NCBI RefSeq assembly: GCF_020400655.1
Contig: NZ_JAINRC010000002.1
Coordinates: forward strand, 434,001-498,000
Length of the DNA: 64,000 nucleotides
Reading direction: 5' to 3'
Source of the DNA: Streptomyces spinosus
GTDB lineage: Bacteria; Actinomycetota; Actinomycetes; Streptomycetales; Streptomycetaceae
This document shows positions 55,566 through 55,726 of the stretch, piece by piece. Below the pieces are notes generated by a model. It did no database searches, was not told the DNA's origin, and saw nothing but the letters and a program-made list of their open reading frames with translations. Positions within the stretch are counted from its first letter, which is position 1. Every line of letters begins with the position of its first letter. A program made the translations under genes and the position numbers.

Positions 55566-55726
55566 GTACACGCGGGAGCTCGGAGCACCGGGCTGAGAGG
55601 GCGCTGACCTCCGTACACGCGATGTTTCACGTGGAACAAGAGGTGTTCCACAGGAAACGTCGGCAGACGGAAACCGCTGCGTCGACCGCCGAACCTGTTA
55701 CCGGGTAATGCCGGCGTAGGGAGTAG
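55566..55726 (+). promoter_or_regulatory. TPP riboswitch (thi box) of thiC
   Basis: The leader has the conserved TPP aptamer pieces: GGGCTGAGAG (55590-55599), GAACCTGTTACCGGGTAATGCC (in parts, 55691-55712) and GGCGTAGGGAG. They enclose an unusually long P3 arm of about 90 nt (GGCG 55599-55602 with CGCC 55687-55690). The 3' end reaches GGGAGTAGG, 6-14 bases before the ATG, so TPP binding probably hides the ribosome-binding site. A parS-like site lies in the P3 arm. Confidence 0.92.
55624..55637. promoter_or_regulatory. parS-like site (one mismatch) in the TPP riboswitch P3 arm
   Basis: GTTTCACGTGGAAC differs from parS at position 11. In the RNA, GTTTC and GTGGAACA of this site pair with GAAAC and TGTTCCAC downstream, so parS forms one side of a 17-bp hairpin (55620-55662) at the tip of P3. 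Confidence 0.72.

Follow-up and report, generated by a model that had tools for sequence, protein, structure and literature searches.

In a 64,000-nt stretch of DNA from Streptomyces spinosus (the window), the leader of thiC holds a TPP riboswitch whose P3 arm ends in a palindrome resembling parS. A sequence-only reading had proposed that this DNA is both a ParB site and a structural element of the riboswitch, which raises the question of what keeps the palindrome there: a protein that reads the duplex, the RNA itself, both, or neither. The elements of the leader are:

55562..55739, + strand: TPP riboswitch RF00059, before thiC (Infernal match, model ends included; 37.7 bits, E 3.8e-6, below the gathering score)
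55620..55662, + strand: hairpin of the P3 tip (9+8 pairs with a 2x2 internal loop; from folding)
55624..55637, + strand: parS-like 14-mer GTTTCACGTGGAAC, 5′ arm of the P3 tip (pattern match and conservation across leaders)
55645..55658, + strand: partner 14-mer GTTCCACAGGAAAC, 3′ arm (three mismatches from parS; pairing from folding)
55732..57516, + strand: thiC, phosphomethylpyrimidine synthase (NF006763, 977 bits; TIGR00190, 699 bits)

In a permissive scan the aptamer aligned with model positions 1–105 of 105, the whole consensus core included, and the match lies upstream of a thiamine gene, with the thiC start at 55732. Its 37.7 bits fall short of the Rfam gathering score of 54.3, and the thiC riboswitch was absent from a curated Rfam scan of the window; the low score is probably due to the 74 nt inserted at P3 in the alignment. 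This insert holds GTTTCACGTGGAAC, and the parS-like hairpin sits between the CTGAGA and AACCTG motifs of the aptamer match. The idea that TPP riboswitches generally carry parS was rejected, since the three other TPP matches in the genome contain no parS within one mismatch. The window also has a match to the Streptomyces sRNA Scr3920 (RF02828) at 49310–49436 (109 bits).

A pattern search of the window confirmed that GTTTCACGTGGAAC at 55624–55637 departs from the exact parS, GTTTCACGTGAAAC, at a single base, as had been claimed. Refolding returned the structure proposed earlier, a hairpin of 17 pairs interrupted by one 2x2 internal loop (AC/AG): positions 55620–55628 pair with 55654–55662 (9 pairs) and 55631–55638 with 55644–55651 (8 pairs). 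The hairpin has a predicted energy of −24.6 kcal/mol (z −6.75), and the minimum free energy fold of the full thiC leader includes it.

The P3 site belongs to a cluster of such sites near the expected replication origin. The other features that matter here are:

3039..4169, − strand: dnaN (TIGR00663, 302 bits)
5175..7463, − strand: dnaA open frame (start codon uncertain; TIGR00362, 517 bits)
11160..12461, + strand: open frame that we take to be parA from ParA motifs and its place before parB (start codon uncertain; translation inspected)
12458..13558, + strand: parB (TIGR00180, ParB/RepB/Spo0J family, 210 bits, cut-off 58; TIGR04285, Noc, below its cut-off)
47752..47765, + strand: the exact parS closest to the P3 site on its upstream side (pattern search)
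48275..48288, + strand: the closest parS-like site on that side; it reads GTTCCACGTGAAAC, the P3 spelling reverse-complemented (pattern search)

The window contains 13 matches to parS with up to two mismatches (nine exact, three one base off, among them the P3 site, and one two bases off); 100 shuffled versions averaged 0.05. The whole genome (9.17 Mb) has 18 sites within one mismatch, 13 exact and five one base off, every one of them on the window's own contig (C22); a reversed control pattern had no match within one mismatch in the genome. According to PMC8743542, streptomycetes have oriC in the gap between dnaN and dnaA, and the P3 site is ∼50 kb from that gap. Both the rightward bias of Streptomyces parS sites from oriC and their clustering are already described (PMC8743542, PMC4852455). 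By a rough ORF call, the sites at 47752 and 48275 fall within reading frames whose starts are probably over-extended and the parS-like site at 11514 falls in the long parA frame, while the others in the window are intergenic or sit at the edge of an ORF. A 14-mer two mismatches from parS, GTTCCACGTGCAAC at 62796–62809, stands beyond an ORF end at 62701 and is possibly a decayed site.

Conservation of the palindrome was followed in 230 Streptomyces thiC leaders, 214 of them distinct. They comprised 80 named leaders, the closest relatives among the matches listed, and 150 loci, the window's own included, from a draw across the genus in which 198 genomes matched and 149 were used; the 49 left out were weaker or unlisted matches. 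Each leader was scored by its best 14-mer between CTGAGA and AACCTG. The distribution among the distinct leaders had two separate parts: seven with no mismatch to parS, 137 with one, none with two to five, and 70 with six or more. The word is absent from one further Streptomyces leader, and from both thiC loci of a genome that carries two on separate contigs (L168 and L196 of G024). The sequence-only reading had made its proposal depend on conservation of the palindrome in related thiC leaders, and with 144 of 214 within one base of parS the palindrome is indeed conserved. Five spellings occur in these 144 leaders: GTTTCACGTGGAAC in 81, GTTTCACATGAAAC in 38, GTTTCACGGGAAAC in 14, the exact word in seven and GTTCCACGTGAAAC in four. 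Outside Streptomyces, 40 leaders representing 15 genera (40 of the 49 matching genomes of other genera were taken) all lack the word, and an ancestral presence in the family was rejected on this count.

A FastTree tree was built from 1,000 nt of thiC for 254 leaders, one (L277) being dropped for a doubtful segment. On it 143 of the 144 positive leaders form one clade without exception (branch support 82). The lone positive outside the clade, L224, has a thiC and upstream DNA that best match lineages lacking the site and a leader that best matches site-bearing ones; an independent second gain in it was set aside, as transfer of the leader fits equally well.

Changes were counted on this tree, which rests on thiC alone, so that recombination could inflate the counts. 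Within the 143-leader clade ten of the 14 word positions did not change at all, and positions 8, 9, 11 and 4 changed 15, 5, 16 and 2 times. Each of the eight bases downstream changed 17–33 times, and each of the five upstream only 4–6 times, so the outer stem is constrained as well. For comparison, in 110 long-armed leaders third codon positions of thiC changed 10.1 times per site and second positions 0.7 times. By this measure the 14-mer is conserved as a DNA word. At least 21 changes of spelling are needed on the tree, yet no P3 word combines two departures from parS and few are exact; either the site is tuned to be one step weaker than perfect parS, or alleles are exchanged by recombination.

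The two arms of the stem differ in how they change. In the 110 of 121 long-armed leaders that could be compared (11 have other lengths), parsimony counted 31 changes for the parS arm and 137 for its partner (two-sided binomial 4e-17, with positions and lineages that are not independent). The lower helix was paired in 542 of 545 cells (109 long leaders, L088 excluded); here the partner arm went from A to G opposite T, giving U-G, and the parS arm from T to C in three leaders only. At the pair just outside the 14-mer both sides vary (n = 75: A-T 37, G-T 17, G-C 16, A-C 5). For pairs 9:6 and 11:4 of the upper helix, 179 of 218 cells are paired; shuffles that do not keep relatedness gave a mean of 152 and a maximum of 169. 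Deviant cells of the partner arm, those that depart from the majority, keep pairing in 157 of 241 cases and lose it in 84. Judged from these counts, the stem is held imperfectly and the parS arm almost perfectly. A frozen parS arm facing a partner that drifts through wobble pairs is the pattern expected where a DNA word overlies an RNA stem, and the comparison thus lends support to the proposed dual use as DNA word and riboswitch element.

We therefore think it likely, as far as comparison of leaders can tell, that the parS at the P3 tip is kept as a candidate ParB site in double-stranded DNA; the RNA probably tolerates the palindrome as a hairpin in a variable arm. ParB on duplex DNA would, with fair support, be the selecting agent; among the points in favour, all 18 sites of the genome share a contig with parB. 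The palindrome would fold into a hairpin in an arm that is tolerant of sequence and away from the ligand pocket.

Several variant leaders bear on how such an arm is built. In L088 the word stands in the opposite arm: the 3′ arm reads GTTCCACGTGAAAC, and decay has left the 5′ arm as GCTTCATGGGGAAC. In four others (L117, L131, L070 and L224) the 14-mer is exact parS amid differing flanks. Twenty-three of the 144 positive leaders have a short P3 whose hairpin consists of the palindrome only, with nine pairs and an ACGU loop by folding; switches between short and long P3 number at least seven on the tree. A tandem palindrome is also an inverted repeat, so the long, two-armed P3 could have arisen by tandem duplication of the palindrome, and the short forms by deletion between the repeats. 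The P3 of L026, L040, L064 and L163 contains two near-palindromes, GTTTCACGTGGAAC and GTTTCACATGAAAC, arranged in tandem as a direct repeat; such P3s suggest that duplication and deletion would be the route between long and short arms.

The hairpin might instead act only as RNA, binding something in that form or setting co-transcriptional folding or pausing, with the likeness to parS incidental. Its stem is predicted to be very stable (the z-score given above), pairing in the lower helix is almost always kept, and an RNA constraint would be strand-specific, as is the bias in the changes of the 14-mer (36 in its 3′ half and 2 in its 5′ half in the 143-leader clade) and the preference for U-G over C-A at pair 11:4. 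A helix kept for its own sake should, however, change on both arms, and these arms differ as described, with T to C almost absent opposite G. Moreover, the sequence is dispensable in 70 of 214 Streptomyces and 40 of 40 other-genus leaders, its close copies in the genome are only the sites clustered in the oriC contig, and L088 carries the word in the other arm. We regard this explanation as unlikely, and an RNA helix as sole cause was set aside on the asymmetry of the arms and the swap in L088.

How the P3 word compares with other parS sites was examined in the loci of 120 relatives, each a stretch of up to 20 kb around thiC (2.35 Mb in all). Outside P3 there are 211 sites within one base of parS: 145 exact, 63 with GTTTCACGTGGAAC or its reverse complement, and three others. 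The word of the window is thus a parS spelling, one mismatch from the exact site and in use at 63 of 211 other sites, and because those 63 share it, the base by which P3 departs from perfect parS is the one that most often varies elsewhere. Fifty of the 63 have one orientation and lie at about −7 to −8 kb; they are probably one orthologous site. Published spellings are close: GTTTCACCTGAAAC is printed for S. coelicolor parS (PMC4852455, PMC7022226), with a central base unlike that of the word found here, and TGTTNCACGTGAAACA, listed for Corynebacterium glutamicum in a review (PMC7022226), covers the P3 spelling. Two of the P3 spellings are less usual. Those with G8A and T9G together account for 52 of the 144 P3 leaders, and among the 211 other sites they occur once and not at all, respectively; the S. 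spinosus genome has one GTTTCCCGTGAAAC, the mirror of the T9G spelling. The exact word is found in 7 of 144 P3 leaders and at 145 of 211 sites elsewhere, in raw counts uncorrected for shared ancestry.

The scarcity of the exact word in P3, and the two spellings almost absent elsewhere, would also suit a fading parS that was gained once, no longer binds ParB in the G8A and T9G lineages and is merely inherited in the rest. Decay of this kind should leave leaders with two to five mismatches, of which there are none among the 214; the G8A and T9G leaders are all one base off, and the contrast in exact words carries the uncorrected ancestry just noted. We find a fading site quite unlikely. The same uncorrected contrast led us to set aside a tuned weak site as the main reading, together with the fact that a single spelling at about −7 to −8 kb accounts for 50 of the 66 one-off sites outside P3.

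The bias of 36 to 2 is the observation that fits a palindromic protein site least. Strand-symmetric tolerance, which is our own expectation for such a site and not a printed defining feature of parS, was not seen. That position 11 changes rather than position 4 can be explained by U-G wobble; positions 8 and 9 lie outside this account. As ParB leaves the bias unexplained, another DNA-binding protein of the origin region might be the reader of the palindrome. The word and its second spelling are nevertheless those of many sites in the oriC area beside parB, and the published ParB site has such a parS spelling (PMC4852455, PMC7022226), which makes another protein very improbable. A chance likeness of a neutral hairpin spread by shared ancestry, which draws on the non-independence of the 143 of 144 cases in one clade, is scarcely credible and was rejected, given ten unchanged positions against about ten changes per third codon position (in 110 of the clade's leaders), and a clustering of parS matches in the genome with 13 in the window where 0.05 are expected.

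Maintenance as a ParB site therefore remains our preferred reading, with these observations counting against it: the 52 leaders with spellings nearly absent at other sites, the strand bias, which is not predicted for a palindromic protein site, the conservation of the five upstream bases, the 84 of 241 deviant partner-arm cells left unpaired, and the 70 of 214 Streptomyces leaders that manage without the word. In its account of S. coelicolor ParB in Escherichia coli, the review PMC7022226 reports no binding to half-parS.

The P3 site may possibly give ParB a place to load in a region otherwise without a nearby one. Elsewhere within 5 kb of thiC, a parS occurs in none of 55 site-bearing and 12 of 65 site-less loci, although some loci are cut by contig ends and the counts are uncorrected for clade structure. 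Eleven of the 12 lie at +1.8 to +3.1 kb of the thiC start, in loci whose P3 lacks parS (L137, L149, L189, L194, L201, L208, L213, L215, L219, L221 and L228). In several of these loci the downstream parS forms tandem pairs or triples ∼20–30 bp apart. It is suggestive only that a nearby site might compensate where P3 is without parS.

Spreading of ParB from the P3 site could possibly affect thiC expression, by analogy with other systems. In S. venezuelae ParB is reported to spread 2.5–3 kb from parS (PMC12511625), and over that reach it could cover thiC; any effect on thiC transcription would be secondary. A bolder version, to which we give a small chance, is that ParB loads in the thiC leader, its clamps and RNA polymerase hinder each other there, and the parS, weakened by one base in nearly every case, is tuned to throttle thiC in sporulation without shutting it off. 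If such coupling were true, chromosome segregation would be physically tied to vitamin-B1 synthesis.

No paper linking parS with a riboswitch, or Streptomyces parS with thiC, was found by title or abstract start in a search that most subscription journals lie outside. What we would call new is that a DNA site and an RNA, each already known, appear to be fused in a single element under two constraints. The segment seems to have two readers, a segregation protein acting on the duplex and a riboswitch formed by the RNA; which arm varies, and the presence of G-U wobbles, tell the two constraints apart. Since a palindromic site in DNA is by its very make-up suited to a hairpin arm, further protein sites may be hidden in other variable leader stems close to oriC. 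The element also makes it testable whether transcribed parS affects the gene whose leader holds it.

Among known systems, parS3 and parS4 of Pseudomonas aeruginosa, from which ParB represses PA0011 and PA0013 according to PMC7022226, resemble the P3 site as ParB-type sites upstream of a gene whose expression spreading could touch. They differ as intergenic DNA motifs with measured effects on expression. The leader agrees with the TPP riboswitch (THI element, RF00059) in its whole-model alignment and its place before thiC; what sets it apart is a P3 that bears a 43-nt hairpin with the parS word. With chromosomal parS of Streptomyces, the P3 site shares a 14-bp near-palindrome in a common spelling, clustering near oriC and a nearby parB. 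Unlike those sites, it has in relatives two spellings that are nearly absent at other sites, and it lies inside a riboswitch aptamer, where its arms and strands change unequally.
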